Shown here piece after piece: positions 31,927 through 39,067 of a stretch of 46,177 nt of DNA (position 1 is the stretch's first letter; each line of letters begins with the position of its first letter). The notes beneath the pieces were generated by a model. That model made no database searches, had not been told where the DNA came from, and saw only the letters and a program-made list of their open reading frames with translations. The position numbers and the translations under genes are program-made. This stretch comes from an uncultured Ruminococcus sp. (lineage in GTDB: Bacteria; Bacillota; Clostridia; Oscillospirales; Acutalibacteraceae): NCBI GenBank assembly GCA_902787145.1, contig CADAEZ010000007.1:1-46177 (forward strand). The letters run 5' to 3'.

Positions 31927-33750
31927 TTATTCCACCGTAACCGATTTAGCAAGATTCCTCGGTTTGTCAACGTCGTTACCCTTGTTGACCGAGGTGTAGT
32001 ACGCCAGCAGCTGCATCGGAACCGTAGCAATCATCGGCATAAGCACCTCCGAGATCTTCGGGATCCTGATCGTATAGTCTGCGGCGTCATTGTCGAACTC
32101 GGCGGCTTCGTCACAGATTACGATTGTCATCGCGCCCCTCGCCTTAACCTCCTTGATGTTGCTTACGGTTTTTTCGAGCAGCGAGGTCTGTGTCGCTACG
32201 GCGATAACCGGCATTCCCTCGGTGATAAGCGAGATTGTACCGTGCTTGAGCTCGCCGGCGGCGTAGCTTTCGGAGTGGATATATGATACTTCTTTAAGTT
32301 TTAGCGAGCCTTCCATCGACAGCGCGTAGTCGAGTCCGCGTCCGATATACAGCAGGCTGTCCGCTGTGATAAGCTTTGTCGAAATATACTGACAGTTGTA
32401 TTCGAGGCTGATTGCCCTTTCGATAATCTCCGGAGTTTTTACCAGCTCGGCGGTCAGTCTGCGGCATTCCTTTTCGTCAATCCTGCCCTTTGCGTACGCC
32501 ATCTCGAACGCCAGCAGGTACATAACCGATAGCTGTACCATATATGCCTTTGTCGACGCTACGGCGATTTCGGGACCCGCGTGGGTGTAGATTACCATAT
32601 CGGATTCTCTGGCTATGGAGCTGCCCTTTACGTTTACCACTGCGAGGGTCTTTGCTCCTTTTTCCTTGGCAAGGTTCAAAACCGCCTTCGAGTCCGCGGT
32701 CTCGCCCGACTGGCTGATGATTATAACCAGGTCGTCCTCGTTAAGCAGCGGATCGCGGTAACGGAACTCCGACGCTATGTCGACCGTTACCGATACTCTC
32801 GCAAGCTTTTCGATAACATATTTGCCGACCATACCGGCGTGCATAGCTGTTCCGCAGGCGACGATAAAAATGTTCTTGAAGCTTTTGAGGGTTTCGGGAG
32901 TGATTCCGCATTCGCTGAGGTTTGGCATACCGTCCTCGATCCTCGGTGTAATCGTAGTCTTTACCGCGGTGGGCTGCTCGTGGATTTCCTTTATCATAAA
33001 GTGCTCAAATCCGCCCTTCTCGGCGCTGTCCTCGTCGAAGTCGGCAGTCTTAAGCTCTTTTTCTATCATCCTGCCGTGCAGGTTACAGAAGCTTGCCGAG
33101 CCGTTTTTAAGCACGGCGATTTCTCCGTATTCAAGCAGGTAGTAGTCTTTTGTGTATTTTATAATCGCCGGAACATCCGAGGCGATAAAGGCTTCGCCCA
33201 TACCCTGACCGACAATCAGCGGCGACTCGCACCTTACTGCGTATACAGTCTCCGGACGGTCGGCAAATACAATTCCAAGCGCGAACGAGCCTCTGATTTC
33301 GTGCAGAACCTTTCTGATACAGCGTACCGGGTTGCCGTCATAATAATAATCCAGAAGCTGAGCGACGATCTCGGTGTCTGTATCGCTCAAAAACTCTGTG
33401 CGGTCGTTGTCGATAAGGAATTTTTTGATCTGCTTGTAGTTCTCGATAATTCCGTTGTGTACAATAGTAACCCTCCTGCCCGAATGCGGGTGGGAGTTTA
33501 CGTCCGACGGCTCGCCGTGCGTCGCCCAGCGGGTATGACCGATTCCGGCGTGACCGGACGGTTTGCCCTCTTTTTCCATTTTGGCGACAAGATCCGTCAG
33601 TCTGCCCTTGGACTTCGCCACCTCGATTTTGCCGTTCTCAAAAACAGCGATTCCGGCTGAGTCGTATCCTCTGTATTCAAGCTTAGTCAGCGCGGATACA
33701 AGCACGTCCGAACAGTCTCTCGGACCTACATAACCAACTATACCACACAT
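31927..33750 (-). CDS. glmS: Glutamine--fructose-6-phosphate aminotransferase (isomerizing)
   Basis: A 607-residue enzyme that makes glucosamine 6-phosphate from fructose 6-phosphate and glutamine, the first step to UDP-GlcNAc. The glutaminase domain is complete: MCGIVGYVGPRDCSDVLV with the N-terminal nucleophile Cys, EYRGYDSAGIA, HTRWATHGEPSDVNSHPH and DTDTEIVAQL. Two SIS domains follow (ACGTAMHAGMVGKYVIE, SQSGETADS, SSTKAY-like ASTKAYMVQL). The C-terminus DKPRNLAKSVTVE is typical. GGAGGG lies six bases before the ATG. It is transcribed away from nagB. Its leader is only about 25-30 bases, so it has no room for a glmS ribozyme. Confidence 0.97.
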   Translation of the reverse strand: MCGIVGYVGPRDCSDVLVSALTKLEYRGYDSAGIAVFENGKIEVAKSKGRLTDLVAKMEKEGKPSGHAGIGHTRWATHGEPSDVNSHPHSGRRVTIVHNGIIENYKQIKKFLIDNDRTEFLSDTDTEIVAQLLDYYYDGNPVRCIRKVLHEIRGSFALGIVFADRPETVYAVRCESPLIVGQGMGEAFIASDVPAIIKYTKDYYLLEYGEIAVLKNGSASFCNLHGRMIEKELKTADFDEDSAEKGGFEHFMIKEIHEQPTAVKTTITPRIEDGMPNLSECGITPETLKSFKNIFIVACGTAMHAGMVGKYVIEKLARVSVTVDIASEFRYRDPLLNEDDLVIIISQSGETADSKAVLNLAKEKGAKTLAVVNVKGSSIARESDMVIYTHAGPEIAVASTKAYMVQLSVMYLLAFEMAYAKGRIDEKECRRLTAELVKTPEIIERAISLEYNCQYISTKLITADSLLYIGRGLDYALSMEGSLKLKEVSYIHSESYAAGELKHGTISLITEGMPVIAVATQTSLLEKTVSNIKEVKARGAMTIVICDEAAEFDNDAADYTIRIPKISEVLMPMIATVPMQLLAYYTSVNKGNDVDKPRNLAKSVTVE

Positions 33751-33851: not shown

Positions 33852-34033
33852 ATGCAAGATTACCTAAAAATATACTCAATATCACGCCAAAATTGAATTA
33901 TAAAGACGACTATATTGCAGTTTATACAGGGCGATATGCTCGGTTATTCCGTGTTTTGGTTATATAATCTCCCTTGCCGCAAAATCGGTTTTAGTCTGTG
34001 ATTTTTCGCGCGATTTCTTGTCAATTTGTTTTC

Positions 34034-34062
34034 TTGACTTTTGCTCTATATTATGCTAAAAT
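34034..34062 (+). promoter_or_regulatory. Promoter for the ribozyme-nagB-glmM transcript
   Basis: TTGACT (34034-34039), 17-base spacer, TAAAAT (34057-34062) with TGC before it as an extended -10. It gives a leader of nearly 290 bases. Confidence 0.85.
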
Positions 34063-34095
34063 TTCTATGATTACGCATAGGTGATCGCACAGTAA

Positions 34096-34129
34096 AACAA
34101 ACTCCGTGAAAGGAGCAAAAGAGTTTGTT
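34096..34129 (+). promoter_or_regulatory. Hairpin immediately upstream of the ribozyme cleavage site
   Basis: Perfect 9-bp inverted repeat AACAAACTC / GAGTTTGTT (34096-34104 with 34121-34129), loop of 16 bases containing AGGAG, ending exactly at the base before the predicted scissile A. It may present the cleavage site or protect the 5' product. Confidence 0.6.
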
Positions 34130-34264
34130 AGCGCCAGGACCGAAAGGTTGACGAGGAATGACAGTTATCGAAAGACTCGGCGGATGCTGTCACGGCCTTA
34201 TAAAGCGGGTCGTTAAGGAGAAAGAAAAAGCAGAATCAACACTGTAACAAAGGTTCTCCGGACA
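34130..34264 (+). ncRNA. glmS-type self-cleaving ribozyme (glucosamine-6-phosphate responsive), upstream of nagB
   Basis: The conserved parts of the class appear in order. The cleavage site is A34130/G34131 in AGCGCC. GGACC-GAAA-GGTTG forms a short P1 with a GAAA loop, then GACGAGG follows. Stem TGACAG / CTGTCA (34169-34195 region) encloses TTATCG...TCGGCGGATG. CACGGCC...GCGGGTCGTTA follows, then P4, GGAGAA / TTCTCC (34217-34222 with 34254-34259), ending CCGGACA. In known members glucosamine 6-phosphate is the cofactor for cleavage, and the 5'-OH product is degraded. Here the downstream gene is nagB and not glmS. One departure is GGATG where the better-known members have GGGTG. Confidence 0.88.
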
Positions 34265-34356
34265 CTTTATTATTCTATGTGAAAACATAAAACAGAATGG
34301 ATGTTAATATAAATTTATTGCCCGTTTGATACGGGTAGAAAGGTAAGGCAATTATT

Positions 34357-35148
34357 ATGAGAGTTGTTATTCAGGACAATTACGATAAAATGTGTAAGTG
34401 GGCGGCTGACTATATCGCTCAGAAAATCAAGAACCACAAGGAGGATCGTCCCTTTGTACTCGGACTCCCCACAGGTTCATCACCGATCGGCGTATACAAG
34501 GAGCTCTATACAATGAACCAGAAAGGCGAGCTTTCCTTTGCCAATGTGGTAACATTCAATATGGACGAGTACCTCGGACTCCCTCACGAGCATGACCAGA
34601 GCTACTGGTACTTTATGCACGACAACTTCTTCAACCACCTTGTTGATATGAAGAAAGAGAACATCAACATCCTCAACGGTATGACCGACGATCCTGAGGG
34701 CGAGTGCGCAAGATATGAGGAGAAAATCGCGTCCTACGGCGGCATCGACCTCTTTATGGGCGGAATCGGCGTTGACGGCCATATCGCGTTCAACGAGCCG
34801 TTCACCAGCCTCGCTTCACGCACAGGTCTGCGCGACCTTACTACAGACACAAGAATCGTAAACTCACGTTTCTTCGGCAACGACCCTGAGGCTGTTCCGG
34901 CTCAGGCTCTCTCGGTAGGCGTAGGCACTGTTACAGACTCCAAGGAGGTTCTTATCCTCATCAACGGTCACAACAAGGCCAAGGCTCTCGCCGAGACAGT
35001 AGAAGGCTCGGTAAGCCACAAGTGGACCTGCTCGGCTCTCCAGATGCACAACGGCGCGATAATTGCCTGTGACGAGGCTGCCTGCGACGAGCTTACCGTA
35101 GGCGCTTACAAATACTTCCTCGATATCGAAAAGAAGGAGAGACTTTAA
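34357..35148 (+). CDS. nagB: Glucosamine-6-phosphate deaminase, possibly used in the synthetic direction
   Basis: A 263-residue enzyme of the NagB family: glucosamine 6-phosphate + H2O to fructose 6-phosphate + NH3, a reversible reaction. Motifs are [16 protein letters not shown] (phosphate loop), FNMDEYLGL with the catalytic Asp, [14 protein letters not shown] with His and Glu of the catalytic dyad, SRTGLRDLT and NGHNKAKAL. Length and sequence are normal. It is the first gene behind the ribozyme. The next two genes encode later steps of UDP-GlcNAc synthesis and are coupled (TAATG overlap at 35148). This favours a biosynthetic, ammonia-using role, which is inference. No nagA or sugar transporter is nearby, as would be expected for a catabolic operon. 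Confidence 0.95.
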
Positions 35149-35804
35149 TGTATACAATTAAAGATTTATATGATCTCGACCATACCCTCGCTAAGGACTA
35201 CCTCTCTCAGTTTACCTATCCGTGGGAGGCGCTTAAGGGAATCAAGGATATGATTCTCGAAGTCGGCAAAACTCTCGGCGACGATTACGAGCAGAGAGCA
35301 GAGGGCGTATGGGTTCACAAAACAGCTAAAGTATTTGAGTCGGCTTATCTCGGCTCACCATGTATCATCGGCCCCAACACCGAGGTCAGACACGGAGCTT
35401 TTATCCGCGGCTCGGCTCTCGTAGGCGCTGACTGTGTAGTCGGCAACTCGGTTGAGCTTAAGAACGTAATCCTTTTCGACCACGTTCAAACCCCTCACTA
35501 CAACTATGTCGGCGACTCGATCCTCGGCTATTTCTCTCATATGGGAGCCGGCTCGATCACCTCAAACGTAAAATCCGACAAGCAGCTTGTTGTTGTCAGG
35601 AACGGCGCGGAAAAGATCGAAACAGGAATCAAAAAATTCGGCGCGATGCTGGGCGACTATGTAGAAGTCGGCTGTAACGCCGTATGCAACCCCGGTACGG
35701 TTCTCGGCAGACGCGTAAGCGTGTATCCGACCTCCTGCGTACGCGGAGTTATCCCTGAGGACTGCATCTTTAAGAACAACGGCGAAGTTGTGGAAAGGAA
35801 ATAA
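35148..35804 (+). CDS. Left-handed beta-helix acyltransferase (GlmU C-terminal-like)
   Basis: A 218-residue hexapeptide-repeat protein resembling the acetyltransferase half of GlmU. N-terminal helices (IKDLYDLDHTLAKDYLSQF) are followed by a beta-helix (about 55-195) with V.ESAYLGSPCIIGPNTEVRHGAFIRGSALVGADCVVGN. Its PHYNYVGDSILGYFSHMGAGSITSN matches the GlmU active-site stretch (H..YVGD..iG....iGAG.iT.N). It has no uridylyltransferase domain. Placed between nagB and glmM, the expected reaction is acetylation of glucosamine 1-phosphate. The matching uridylyltransferase must be encoded elsewhere. The start overlaps the nagB stop by one base. Confidence 0.86.
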   Translation: MYTIKDLYDLDHTLAKDYLSQFTYPWEALKGIKDMILEVGKTLGDDYEQRAEGVWVHKTAKVFESAYLGSPCIIGPNTEVRHGAFIRGSALVGADCVVGNSVELKNVILFDHVQTPHYNYVGDSILGYFSHMGAGSITSNVKSDKQLVVVRNGAEKIETGIKKFGAMLGDYVEVGCNAVCNPGTVLGRRVSVYPTSCVRGVIPEDCIFKNNGEVVERK

Positions 35805-35807
35805 TCT

Positions 35808-37154
35808 ATGGGTAAATATTTTGGTACAGACGGATTCAGAGGCGAGGCCAACAAGGTGCTCACCTTTGAACACGCCGTAAAAATCGGCCGATTCCTCGGT
35901 TGGTATTACGGCGCGAATATGGGCAAAAAGGCAAAGGTTGTTATCGGCAAGGACACACGACGCTCCTCGTATATGTTCGAGTACGCGCTGTGCACAGGCC
36001 TTATGGCCAGCGGCGCCGACGCCTATATTATGCACGTTACAACAACACCTTCCGTAGCTTATATCACTCGTATCGACGATTTTGACTGCGGAATTATGAT
36101 TTCGGCTTCTCACAACCCCTTCTATGACAACGGAATCAAGGTTCTTAACGGCAAGGGCGAGAAGATGGAGGAGGAAACCCTCCTGAAGATTGAGGAATAC
36201 ATCGACGACAAAATCGAAATTCCAATCGCCGAGAGAGAAAACATCGGCCGTACAGTCGACTATGTAGCCGGACGTAACCGCTACATCGGCTACCTAATCT
36301 CTATGAGCAAGTACAGCTTCAAGGATATTAAGGTAGGCCTCGACGTAGCCAACGGCGCTTCATGGCAGATCGCCAAGGGCGTATACGACGCTCTCGGAGC
36401 CAAGACATATGTTATGAACGACTCCCCCGACGGCTTTAACATCAACACCGACTGCGGCTCTACTCATATCGAGCACCTGCAAAAGTTTGTAGTAGACAAC
36501 GGCCTCGACATCGGCTTCGCGTATGACGGCGACGCCGACCGCTGCCTCGCTGTAGACGAAAAGGGTAACGTCGTTACAGGCGACCACATCATCTACATCT
36601 ACGGCCGCTATATGAAGGAGAGAGGCAAGCTCATCAACAACAAGGTTGTTGCCACAATTATGAGTAACTTCGGTCTCTTTAAGGCGCTCGACAAGGAAGG
36701 CATCGAGTACGACAAGACCAGCGTAGGCGACAAGTACGTTTACGAGAATATGGTCAACACCGGCAACCGTATCGGCGGCGAGGAGTCAGGCCACATCATC
36801 TTCTCCAAATACGCCACAACAGGCGACGGCATCCTCACATCTCTTAAGCTTATGGAGGTAATGATCGCCAAGGAGAAGCCGATGAGCGAGCTCGCGGCTC
36901 CGATGGTAATGTACCCGCAGGTTCTCAAGAACGTAAAGGTAAAGTCAAAGCCCGACGCCAAGAACGATCCCGACGTACAGGCCGAGGTAGCCAAGGTATC
37001 CGAGGCTCTCGGTGAAAACGGCAGAATCCTGCTCAGAGAGTCAGGCACAGAGCCCGTAATCCGAGTAATGGTAGAGGCCGACTCCGACGAAACCTGCGAA
37101 AAGTATGTTGACCAGGTTATCGCTGTAATCAAGGCAAAAGGACATATTGTTTAA
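35808..37154 (+). CDS. glmM: Phosphoglucosamine mutase
   Basis: A 448-residue phosphohexomutase that converts glucosamine 6-phosphate to the 1-phosphate. KYFGTDGFRGEAN is at the start, MISASHNPFYDNGIKV carries the phospho-serine, and DGDADRCLA is the metal loop. GEESGHI is the sugar-binding loop and RESGTEPVIRVMVE is the phosphate-binding loop. The GEESGHI plus GTDGFRG combination fits GlmM better than phosphomannomutase. GGAAAGGA lies upstream. It is the last gene of the ribozyme-led operon and is followed by a UUCG terminator. Confidence 0.93.
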   Translation: MGKYFGTDGFRGEANKVLTFEHAVKIGRFLGWYYGANMGKKAKVVIGKDTRRSSYMFEYALCTGLMASGADAYIMHVTTTPSVAYITRIDDFDCGIMISASHNPFYDNGIKVLNGKGEKMEEETLLKIEEYIDDKIEIPIAERENIGRTVDYVAGRNRYIGYLISMSKYSFKDIKVGLDVANGASWQIAKGVYDALGAKTYVMNDSPDGFNINTDCGSTHIEHLQKFVVDNGLDIGFAYDGDADRCLAVDEKGNVVTGDHIIYIYGRYMKERGKLINNKVVATIMSNFGLFKALDKEGIEYDKTSVGDKYVYENMVNTGNRIGGEESGHIIFSKYATTGDGILTSLKLMEVMIAKEKPMSELAAPMVMYPQVLKNVKVKSKPDAKNDPDVQAEVAKVSEALGENGRILLRESGTEPVIRVMVEADSDETCEKYVDQVIAVIKAKGHIV

Positions 37155-37157
37155 GAA

Positions 37158-37183
37158 AAAGCGTGCTTCGGCACGCTTTCTGT
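37158..37183 (+). terminator. Terminator after glmM
   Basis: Stem AAAGCGTGC / GCACGCTTT with TTCG loop (37158-37179), then CTGTTT. It resembles the terminators at 110 and 252. Confidence 0.88.
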
Positions 37184-37469: not shown

Positions 37470-37503
37470 TTTTGGCGTGAAACGTTGACGTTTCACGCCA
37501 AAA
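37470..37503. promoter_or_regulatory. Perfect 15-bp palindrome enclosing the -35 box of the asparagine synthetase gene
   Basis: TTTTGGCGTGAAACG (37470-37484), loop TTGA, CGTTTCACGCCAAAA (37489-37503). The -35 hexamer TTGACG (37485-37490) is the loop plus the first two bases of the right arm. The transcript should start downstream, so this acts at DNA level. It is most likely an operator. Confidence 0.75.
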
Positions 37504-37513
37504 ATGCTATAAT
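37485..37513 (+). promoter_or_regulatory. Promoter for the asparagine synthetase-like gene
   Basis: TTGACG (37485-37490), 17-base spacer, TATAAT (37508-37513) with TGC extension. The start codon is at 37544 with GGAGGGG at 37532-37538. Confidence 0.85.
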
Positions 37514-37543: not shown

Positions 37544-39067
37544 ATGGCAACTGTAAAATATTTCAGCGGTTATATCCGCAACTATAAAAAGCTCTGCGAC
37601 GACCTGGGGATTGATTCCGGGCTCGGCAGGGCGGACAGGGAAGAGGCTATCCTCACACAGGCGTATTCAAAGTGGAAGCTGGATATGATGAGCCATATGT
37701 ACGGCTTTTTCGCTTTTGCGATATATGACGAGGACAAAAACAAGCTCTACTGCGTTCGTGACCAAGTCGGCCAGAAGCAGATGTTTTATTCCGTAATCGA
37801 CGGCGAGTTTGTATGCGACGGCGATATAAACAAAATCGCCGCCAACCCCAAATTTGAAAAAAAGCTCAACAAGCGTATGCTCCAGCAGTACCTGTTCTAC
37901 GGCTATCCTATCGGCGACGAGACCTTCTACGAGGGTATTTACAAGCTGATGCCCGGTCACTATGCTGAGTGGGACGGCAGCGATTATACCGTTCACCGCT
38001 ATTGGAAACCCGACTTTGAACCCGACAGAACCAAGTCGGTCGACGAGTTCGCGGCAGAAATCGAACAGGTTGTCGGCGAAATCCTCGGCGAGGAAAGCGA
38101 CGACAAAGAATGTCCCTACAAGGAATCCTTCCTGTCCGGCGGAGTTGATTCGTCATACTTGCTCGCGGCCGGCGACGCTGTCGCGGCTAATACCGTAGGC
38201 TACAGCGAGGAGGGCTTCGACGAGTCTGAGCTGGCGCGTCATACAGCCGAAATCCTCGGCAAGGGCTTCAATGTAAAGATGATTACTCCACAGGAGTACT
38301 TTGAGCGTATTCCGACTGTTATAGAAAAAATGGGTCAGCCTCTCGGCGACGCTTCGGCCGTAGCATTTTCGATCGGCTGTAAGGCGGTAAGAGAACACGC
38401 GAAGATAGTTTATTCCGGCGAGGGAATCGACGAGTTTTTCGGCGGCTACAACGCCCACAAGCGCGAGATTCCCAAGGAGTGGACATACCTGACCTGCTCA
38501 CATATTATGAACAGGGATATCGTAAAGTCCCTTATGCTCGACTTTGACGAAAACCTCAGCTTCGAGGCTCCGGTCGAGAAGCTGTGGGCGGAGGTTCAGG
38601 GCAAGGATGAGCTCGACAAAAAGCTTACTATTGACGTCAGCCTCTGGCTTGAGGGCGATATCTATCTCAACACCGACCGCACCAGCACCGCCTGCGGCAT
38701 AGAGCTGCACACTCCGTTCAGCGACCTCAGACTGTTCAACGTCGCCCGTAGAATCCCCCAGGAATACAAGTTTATGAATGACTGTAACAAGTATGTATTC
38801 CGCAAGGCCGCCGGCAGCAAGCTTCCCGAAGAGGTCGCTTTCCGAAAGAAAGTCGGCTTCCCCGTACCGGTACGCGAGTGGCTGCGCGACGAGCGATTTA
38901 ACAAACAGATAGAGGACAAGCTCCTCGGCGAGACCTCGAAAAAATTCTTCAATCAGCAGGATATAAAGGATATGTGGACAAGCTACCTCGGCGGCGAAAA
39001 CCTCCTGTGGAACCGAATCTACGCAATCTACGCCTTCCTGCTTTGGTATGATATAAATTTTGACTGA
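37544..39067 (+). CDS. Asparagine synthetase B-like protein lacking the N-terminal catalytic part of its glutaminase domain
   Basis: A 507-residue protein. The synthetase domain is intact: the ATP PP-loop SGGVDSS (198-204), GYSEEGFDES, MGQPLGDASAVA, YSGEGIDEFFGGY, TPFSDLRL and FRKKVGFPVPVREWL. The glutaminase domain is shortened. Normal members begin MCGI with a nucleophile Cys followed by about 70 residues (RGPD motif). This one starts with TVKYFSGYIRNYKKLCDDLG, which aligns with the later 'fNGEIYNy.eLr' strand, then keeps GFFAFAIYDEDKNKLYCVRDQVGQKQMFY. Promoter and ribosome binding site directly precede the ATG, so truncation is by design and not an annotation error. Glutamine use should be lost. 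Ammonia-dependent asparagine synthesis, or amidation of another acid, is expected. Confidence 0.85.
   Translation: MATVKYFSGYIRNYKKLCDDLGIDSGLGRADREEAILTQAYSKWKLDMMSHMYGFFAFAIYDEDKNKLYCVRDQVGQKQMFYSVIDGEFVCDGDINKIAANPKFEKKLNKRMLQQYLFYGYPIGDETFYEGIYKLMPGHYAEWDGSDYTVHRYWKPDFEPDRTKSVDEFAAEIEQVVGEILGEESDDKECPYKESFLSGGVDSSYLLAAGDAVAANTVGYSEEGFDESELARHTAEILGKGFNVKMITPQEYFERIPTVIEKMGQPLGDASAVAFSIGCKAVREHAKIVYSGEGIDEFFGGYNAHKREIPKEWTYLTCSHIMNRDIVKSLMLDFDENLSFEAPVEKLWAEVQGKDELDKKLTIDVSLWLEGDIYLNTDRTSTACGIELHTPFSDLRLFNVARRIPQEYKFMNDCNKYVFRKAAGSKLPEEVAFRKKVGFPVPVREWLRDERFNKQIEDKLLGETSKKFFNQQDIKDMWTSYLGGENLLWNRIYAIYAFLLWYDINFD

Follow-up and report, generated by a model that had tools for sequence, protein, structure and literature searches.

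A glmS-class ribozyme in the leader of nagB in an uncultured Ruminococcus and its relatives

The glmS ribozyme is described as a controller of glmS genes (PMC2258182, PMC11477304; these, like the other papers cited here by PMC number, are represented by excerpts, and statements about them are limited to those excerpts). We report a ribozyme of this class in the leader of a different gene, nagB, on contig CADAEZ010000007.1 of an uncultured Ruminococcus sp. (assembly GCA_902787145.1), of which the whole 46,177-nucleotide stretch analysed is referred to below as the window. Like its counterparts upstream of glmS in Bacillus subtilis and many other Bacillota, the window RNA belongs to the covariance-model family RF00234 and has the same core and helices; its ligand, glucosamine 6-phosphate (GlcN6P), and its cleavage site are expected to be the same. 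It differs in standing before nagB, an acetyltransferase gene and glmM, in having a short P1, and in carrying a P4 loop of the form AAUCAAxA instead of a GNRA loop. The usual place upstream of glmS is not the one that this ribozyme occupies; placement is no part of the definition of the RNA.

The genes of the operon have described counterparts of their own. The acetyltransferase aligns over 147 residues with the C-terminal acetyltransferase domain of archaeal-type GlmU (PDB 2ggo and 5z09, which we take to be Sulfolobus proteins), but here it is a stand-alone protein and the uridylyltransferase domain is encoded by a separate gene. With the Bacillus nagAB genes, which serve the use of N-acetylglucosamine (GlcNAc) under NagR (PMC6141813), the locus has in common an enzyme of the NagB family, whose catalytic residues are conserved here; it differs in that nagA is not found over the cut-off in the genus, that the stretch from the nagB promoter-like site to glmM holds genes for UDP-GlcNAc synthesis and no transporter gene, and that control is by an RNA expected to respond to GlcN6P. 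Akkermansia muciniphila NagB (Amuc_1822) comes from a genome without GlmS, and was considered there as a possible source of GlcN6P; the enzyme is reported to be unable to aminate physiologically, and the excerpt at hand mentions no ribozyme (PMC5902328).

The window ribozyme lies at 34119-34269 on the plus strand and matches the full RF00234 model (1-167) with 72.2 bits (E 8.6e-15; gathering score 37), which bears out the original prediction, made from the letters of the DNA, that a complete glmS-class ribozyme stands in the nagB leader. An all-Rfam scan gave no second family above its cut-off anywhere in the window, and no other RF00234 copy was found in the window's genome (2.0 Mb, 102 contigs, 87.5% complete). 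The catalytic core is intact (AGCGCC / GACGAGG / ATCGA / TCGGCGG), the motifs and the site reading as had been claimed, and cleavage is predicted between A34130 and G34131. A pattern for this core, with up to two substitutions allowed, finds no match on either strand of 1.65 Mb of reversed control sequence; together with the E value this rules out a chance match to RF00234.

The secondary structure was examined in an alignment of 45 ribozymes (35 of the 49 nagB-linked ones of the genus and 10 of the 14 from other genera of the family). Standard pairs fill 92.5% of the cells in six nested helices, against a shuffled mean of 78.0%, and double-sided changes occur at 23 of 30 helix pairs, a count that none of 500 shuffles reaches. 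The covariation score is 0.382; shuffled alignments give 0.146 and slid structures no more than 0.100. The helices P1, P2, P3 and P4 are thus maintained through compensatory change; helix 3 is uninformative on covariation since it hardly varies. The CGCC and GGCG bases of a pseudoknot, which we take to be a feature of glmS ribozymes, can pair but hardly vary and were excluded from the count. In the window the P1 hairpin has four pairs (34138-34141 with 34146-34149; 97.2% of cells paired), and P2 (34159-34164 with 34187-34192; 94.4% of cells paired, double-sided changes in five of six pairs) surrounds the core stretch ATCGA...TCGGCGG. The P4 domain (34217-34259) consists of an outer stem, 34217-34222 with 34254-34259, and an inner stem, 34230-34233 with 34242-34245, that closes the 8-base loop AATCAACA (34234-34241); by analogy with B. 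subtilis one would expect a GNRA tetraloop at this place. With the exception of the P4 loop, which is peripheral, each RNA test that could be run identifies the window RNA as a glmS ribozyme.

Where the genus has the ribozyme, it goes with nagB, as judged from 100 genomes. Organism labels in this analysis are the record titles of metagenome-assembled genomes, and other groupings are given as codes. In this survey and in those of the family, order and phylum, Infernal's stricter filters lose weak matches, so that a missing ribozyme does not equate to absence. RF00234 was found in 47 of the 100 genomes (E <=0.001), 44 of them over the cut-off, with 49 matches in total. Downstream of 48 of these 49 lies nagB, detected by BLAST in 47 and by a nagB search in one at a contig end (G015); the remaining ribozyme, in G046, is itself truncated by a contig end. 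The complete order nagB-acetyltransferase-glmM is present at 41 of the 49 loci, and the nagB model matches 53 genomes, which comprise all 47 with the ribozyme and six more. Four of these six have a divergent NagB (G016, G025, G041 and G056), G004 has a nagB fragment where a contig ends, and the sixth (G053, 97% complete in a fragmented assembly) has a nagB remnant at L112 5090-5240, with both ends kept and most of the middle gone, before the acetyltransferase gene and glmM; in G053 the ribozyme was not found and the two partner genes are kept. The ribozyme and the operon are one conserved unit.

The ribozyme sits in the glmS-nagB intergenic region, and one could therefore suppose that it belongs to the divergent glmS, or that it is a chance match. 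It is on the wrong strand for glmS, its E value is 8.6e-15, and glmS was found near only one of the 49 genus ribozymes, that of the window (up to 5 kb upstream was covered, often less), as against 48 followed by nagB. We regard this explanation as vanishingly improbable, and glmS is rejected as the target because it lies on the opposite strand.

Outside the genus the ribozyme usually precedes glmS, as the comparison of nagB with glmS suggested by the original prediction makes plain. In the family survey 15 of 200 genomes carry the ribozyme, and of their 16 matches 12 precede glmS, two are nagB-linked and from the window's genus, one is at a contig end and one follows glmM. Of the 295 genomes in the order survey 63 have the ribozyme, with 64 matches altogether: glmS follows 54, nagB follows two (the window and G581, from another family), seven have other surroundings and one could not be assigned. 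In the phylum survey RF00234 occurs in 265 of 398 genomes and the best 30 places all precede glmS, which says nothing on weaker RNAs because the best-scoring places favour canonical ones. Some of the other settings are curious in themselves. Two ribozymes lie directly 3' of acetyltransferase-glmM, one at 6039-6190 of L106 (G221), followed by a hairpin and a T-rich tail, and one at 3303-3454 of L319 (G421; own strand), followed by a strong hairpin (both judged by eye). They sit as if in a 3' untranslated region (UTR), where GlcN6P could act by removal of the mRNA end. In L327 (G595) a 62.8-bit match has changes in AGCGCC and GACGAGG, and an acetyltransferase-like gene ends within its first bases; this degenerate copy may be a dead relative of the two ribozymes just named. 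Five matches of 78-87 bits in one family of the order (code f19; L301, L304, L302, L305 and L311) have no glmS downstream, two lying between genes for an ATPase and an NptA-like transporter and two flanked by malQ and a CAAX-protease-like gene (names by eye).

The nagB-linked arrangement recurs in other lineages. Among named loci, taken as the best 80 by similarity to the window NagB, the ribozyme stands at the head of the operon in 37, whatever the gene order, a fraction that is not a prevalence. The same 37 are picked by the core pattern and by a covariance model built here from the 45 aligned ribozymes; RF00234, run on 56 of the 80 loci including all 37, reaches its cut-off in 36, with L175 below. 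Eight of the 37 (L127-L133 and L135) look like the window's genus, and L127, L129, L130, L132 and L133 are probably the same records as in the genus survey and so not independent; the other 29 are taken as outside the genus. The ribozyme is followed by nagB-acetyltransferase-glmM in 19 of the 37 (some loci end early), by nagB alone among the genes sought in eight (L203 ends inside nagB), by acetyltransferase-nagB-glmM in four, by acetyltransferase-glmM-nagB in two, by nagB-glmM in two, and by nagB-acetyltransferase and glmM-nagB-glmS in one each. Titles of the 37 loci name Ruminococcus, Lachnospiraceae, Erysipelotrichaceae and others, and ten name a ruminant gut site, which is a stomach chamber in eight.

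The P4 loop sets the nagB-linked ribozymes apart. P1 of the B. subtilis ribozyme is the docking site of the L4 tetraloop, and key residues of the loop and of this receptor are intolerant of substitution (PMC11602151); this GNRA docking feature is not seen in the window. The window's loop motif, with up to two substitutions allowed, is present in all 49 genus and all 37 named nagB-linked ribozymes, and the G581 ribozyme carries it too. It was found in none of 14 ribozymes from other genera of the family and in one of 90 other order and phylum loci, this single match being the glmS-linked RNA L322. When P4 tetraloops were counted crudely in these 90 loci, GNRA was recognised in 16 and no loop was parsed in 63, and the statement that other ribozymes have GNRA loops rests on PMC11602151 and the ribozyme alignment instead of this count. 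The family call stands despite the loop because peripheral domains are called variable among sub-families of the glmS ribozyme (PMC11602151).

These differences invite the reading that the RNA no longer cleaves, or that cleavage increases expression: the loop departs from the B. subtilis GNRA type in 86 of 86 nagB-linked ribozymes, at a contact whose key residues do not tolerate substitution in B. subtilis, and five of the 37 named ribozymes have one or two core substitutions. Against it, no substitution is seen in the core pattern of 48 of the 49 genus ribozymes and 32 of the 37 named ones (of six imperfect cores in all, five have one substitution and L150 has two), P1, P2, P3 and P4 covary, and a protein matching TIGR00649, which we take to be the RNase J family, is encoded in the window's genome. 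We consider a loss or reversal of function quite improbable, and the P4-P1 contact has probably been rebuilt in the nagB-linked group, which provides natural variants of this contact.

The distribution of the unit suggests movement between lineages. Outside the genus, NagB at the 29 loci is 82-92% identical to that of the window, apart from 77% in L182. GlmS is over the cut-off in 21 of the 29 genomes and present in pieces in two (G319 and G321), and in these 23 it is 43-54% identical to the window's; no GlmS-sized match was seen in the other six (<=110 bits). The disparity between 77-92% for NagB and 43-54% for GlmS makes horizontal movement of the unit probable. A ribozyme lies within 1500 bases upstream of glmS in one (G320) of 18 loci in which the glmS start is present, these flanks being short enough to miss a distant leader, and the ribozyme operon of G324 (L182) has glmS as its third gene. 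A NagB tree of 94 rows, which took one in three genus rows, places the 52 ribozyme-linked rows without exception in a single part (support 93, not starred) that also contains 21 rows without a ribozyme, and 51 of the 52 lie on a starred branch with 18 ribozyme-free rows and with families mixed. The ribozyme label needs 12 changes on this tree, compared with a shuffle mean of 31.3; 49 of 87 inner branches are open, and gain and loss are not separable on it. From the sequence comparisons, the ribozyme-nagB unit has probably moved horizontally, with losses.

The remainder of the locus is organized as follows. A promoter-like site for the nagB operon, TTGACT-17-TAAAAT with TG before the second hexamer, lies at 34034-34062 (+; consensus scan, 10 of 12 matches), so that the original prediction of a promoter of its own has a candidate site, with transcription probably starting near 34069. 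On the minus strand a site toward glmS, TTGACA-17-TATACT, lies at 33813-33785; the scan found 11 promoter-like sites, compared with 4.5 in shuffles. The latter site would imply a glmS leader of about 28 bases ahead of the ATG at 33750, which agrees with the 25-30 bases predicted for the divergent glmS and would be too short for a ribozyme. The glmS gene itself (31927-33750, minus strand; TIGR01135, 770.3 bits, cut-off 418.05) has no ribozyme, and RF00234 matches nothing close to it on the minus strand. A probable ribosome binding site, AGAAAGG (34337-34343, +), precedes nagB at 34357-35148 (+), which encodes a glucosamine-6-phosphate deaminase (TIGR00502, 373 bits, cut-off 236.9, with PDB matches). 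The next genes were correctly called in the original prediction: a left-handed beta-helix acetyltransferase like the GlmU C-terminal part (35148-35804, +), which matches the C-terminal part of TIGR03992 with 135.9 bits, under the cut-off of 292.1, and also resembles the C-terminal part of PDB 5z09/2ggo; and glmM, phosphoglucosamine mutase (35808-37154, +; TIGR01455, 539.7 bits, cut-off 447.55). A terminator-like hairpin of nine pairs follows directly at 37158-37179 (+); with four such sites found and 3.7 expected in shuffles it is weak taken alone. Farther downstream there is a gene for an asparagine-synthase-like amidotransferase (37544-39067), preceded by a strong promoter-like site (37485-37513, 11 of 12 matches).

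The window NagB keeps D72, D141, H143 and E148 (Escherichia coli numbering), presumably the catalytic residues, and all four are kept in 41 of 42 genus NagB rows, one having R for H143. The positions of E. coli S151, R158 and K160, which we take to be allosteric residues that bind the phosphate of N-acetylglucosamine 6-phosphate, are T, G and R in the window NagB and most relatives; S, R and K are retained in two spirochaete-labelled loci (L202 and L206). A further 17 loci (L184-L188 and L190-L201) have a NagB about 69-73% identical to the window's with T/G/R at these positions, neither a ribozyme found nor an acetyltransferase gene or glmM nearby, and titles that name rectum, cecum or colon in nine.

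In which direction NagB works is a separate question. nagA is over the cut-off in none of the 100 genus genomes; weak matches in 55, of at most 34.5 bits over short stretches, are taken for other amidohydrolases. No GlmU was found over the cut-off in the window's genome. A different contig encodes a separate uridylyltransferase domain in a frame of 251 aa, and for the C-terminal half of GlmU the operon acetyltransferase scores best, with one weak match also reaching into that half; by these similarities GlmU is split into separate proteins in this genome. Four genus relatives (G016, G025, G056 and G041; loci L107-L110) have glmM followed by the divergent nagB and no GlmS-sized match, their completeness being 99, 92, 83 and 66%. 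The absence of nagA in the genus, the split GlmU, the partners in the operon and these four relatives lead us to favour a biosynthetic operon, with NagB working toward GlcN6P, and to this extent we agree with the original prediction.

Several observations weigh against this. The window's genome has GlmS, and a GlmS over the cut-off was found in 88 of the 100 genus genomes (12 are without), so that NagB is not needed there for GlcN6P. In the four relatives NagB is only 38-39% identical to the window's and belongs to another subfamily, and the ribozyme was not found in them. Two genomes (G014, 84% complete, and G086, 85%) lack both a GlmS match over the cut-off and a NagB match, and gene absences in metagenome-assembled genomes are therefore weak evidence. 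Outside the genus nagA is over the cut-off in 15 of the 29 ribozyme-nagB genomes, namely in all six without a GlmS-sized match and in nine of the other 23, which fits scavenging of GlcNAc and a degradative NagB there. The loss of the allosteric residues is rejected as a signature of the unit, since relatives without the ribozyme show the same change. Finally, Akkermansia NagB is reported to be unable to form GlcN6P under physiological conditions, with Km values of 41.3 mM for ammonium, 5.5 mM for fructose-6-phosphate and 2.4 mM for GlcN6P (PMC5902328).

Some stronger statements about gene loss were considered and are not made. The reading of glmS as a pseudogene beside the intact ribozyme-nagB operon of G033 is rejected, at least one of the apparent breaks being a stretch of assembly Ns. 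We do not claim that glmS has been lost from G006, G058 and G077 (80-89% complete), where incompleteness can explain its absence, nor that NagB is the sole source of GlcN6P in the six outside-genus genomes, all of which carry nagA and for which completeness is not given.

Given these facts the claim of a single direction is unsafe, and a role as a check valve fits them as well. A reversible NagB would then be made only when GlcN6P is low, a state in which amination can be favoured by mass action and ammonia, and shut off before it could deaminate the GlcN6P made by GlmS, and so be effectively one-way. The ribozyme-free GlmS in the same genome, the absence of nagA over the cut-off in all 100 genus genomes, the co-regulation of NagB with glmM and the acetyltransferase, and the reversibility of Akkermansia NagB with its weak aminating side (PMC5902328) all suit this reading; why NagB should be kept at all if the aminating flux is small is left unexplained by it. 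We consider it possible rather than probable.

A degradative NagB might instead be a mere passenger, the ribozyme mainly serving glmM and the acetyltransferase. The nagA genes of the 15 outside-genus genomes, including the six without a GlmS-sized match, point this way, as do the ribozymes that stand directly before the acetyltransferase gene (six of the 37 named loci) or glmM (one). The eight named loci with ribozyme and nagB and no detected partner gene speak against it, as do G053, which lost the ribozyme and most of nagB yet kept the partner genes, and the genus-wide lack of nagA over the cut-off. On balance a passenger nagB seems to us unlikely.

The explanation that we prefer, and hold to be somewhat probable, is that a GlcN6P-sensing ribozyme shuts a UDP-GlcNAc supply operon whose NagB mainly aminates, and that the unit has been exchanged among ruminant gut bacteria. 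GlcN6P would bind the leader RNA and serve as the cofactor for the cut between A34130 and G34131. RNase J is the enzyme that degrades cleaved glmS mRNA, and the cut nagB message would then probably be degraded by it; the TIGR00649 protein of the window's genome scores 612 bits (cut-off 400; model named MG423). For glmS itself, degradation of the mRNA by RNases after cleavage is published (PMC11477304). Expression of nagB, the acetyltransferase gene and glmM would fall after cleavage. As a partner of GlmS that depends on ammonia, NagB would for the most part form GlcN6P from fructose-6-phosphate and ammonia, and GlmM and the acetyltransferase would carry GlcN6P on to GlcNAc-1-phosphate. The unit would have passed between ruminant gut bacteria. 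A bolder form, which we offer tentatively and do not expect to hold in full, is that of a mobile ribozyme with its own periphery that acts as a check valve for an ammonia-dependent NagB and has spread over several ruminant-gut families; if true, part of the nitrogen in cell-wall amino sugars would be drawn straight from rumen ammonia.

We have met no published report of a glmS ribozyme before nagB, and a nagB-linked one is unmentioned in the excerpts at hand of PMC11602151, PMC11477304, PMC2258182, PMC10668854, PMC5902328, PMC11593775 and PMC3766115; this coverage of the literature is partial, so that novelty in print is unsettled. With that reservation nagB appears to be a new target of the glmS ribozyme, the RNA itself being a member of a known family.

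In summary, the ribozyme-nagB group illustrates that feedback by GlcN6P can be attached to an enzyme other than GlmS. The placement of the ribozyme predicts the direction of NagB in the bacteria that have this arrangement, and it serves as a warning that not every nagB should be annotated as catabolic. The analysis suggests that NagB, usually thought of as degradative, helps to build GlcN6P in rumen Ruminococcus and its relatives.

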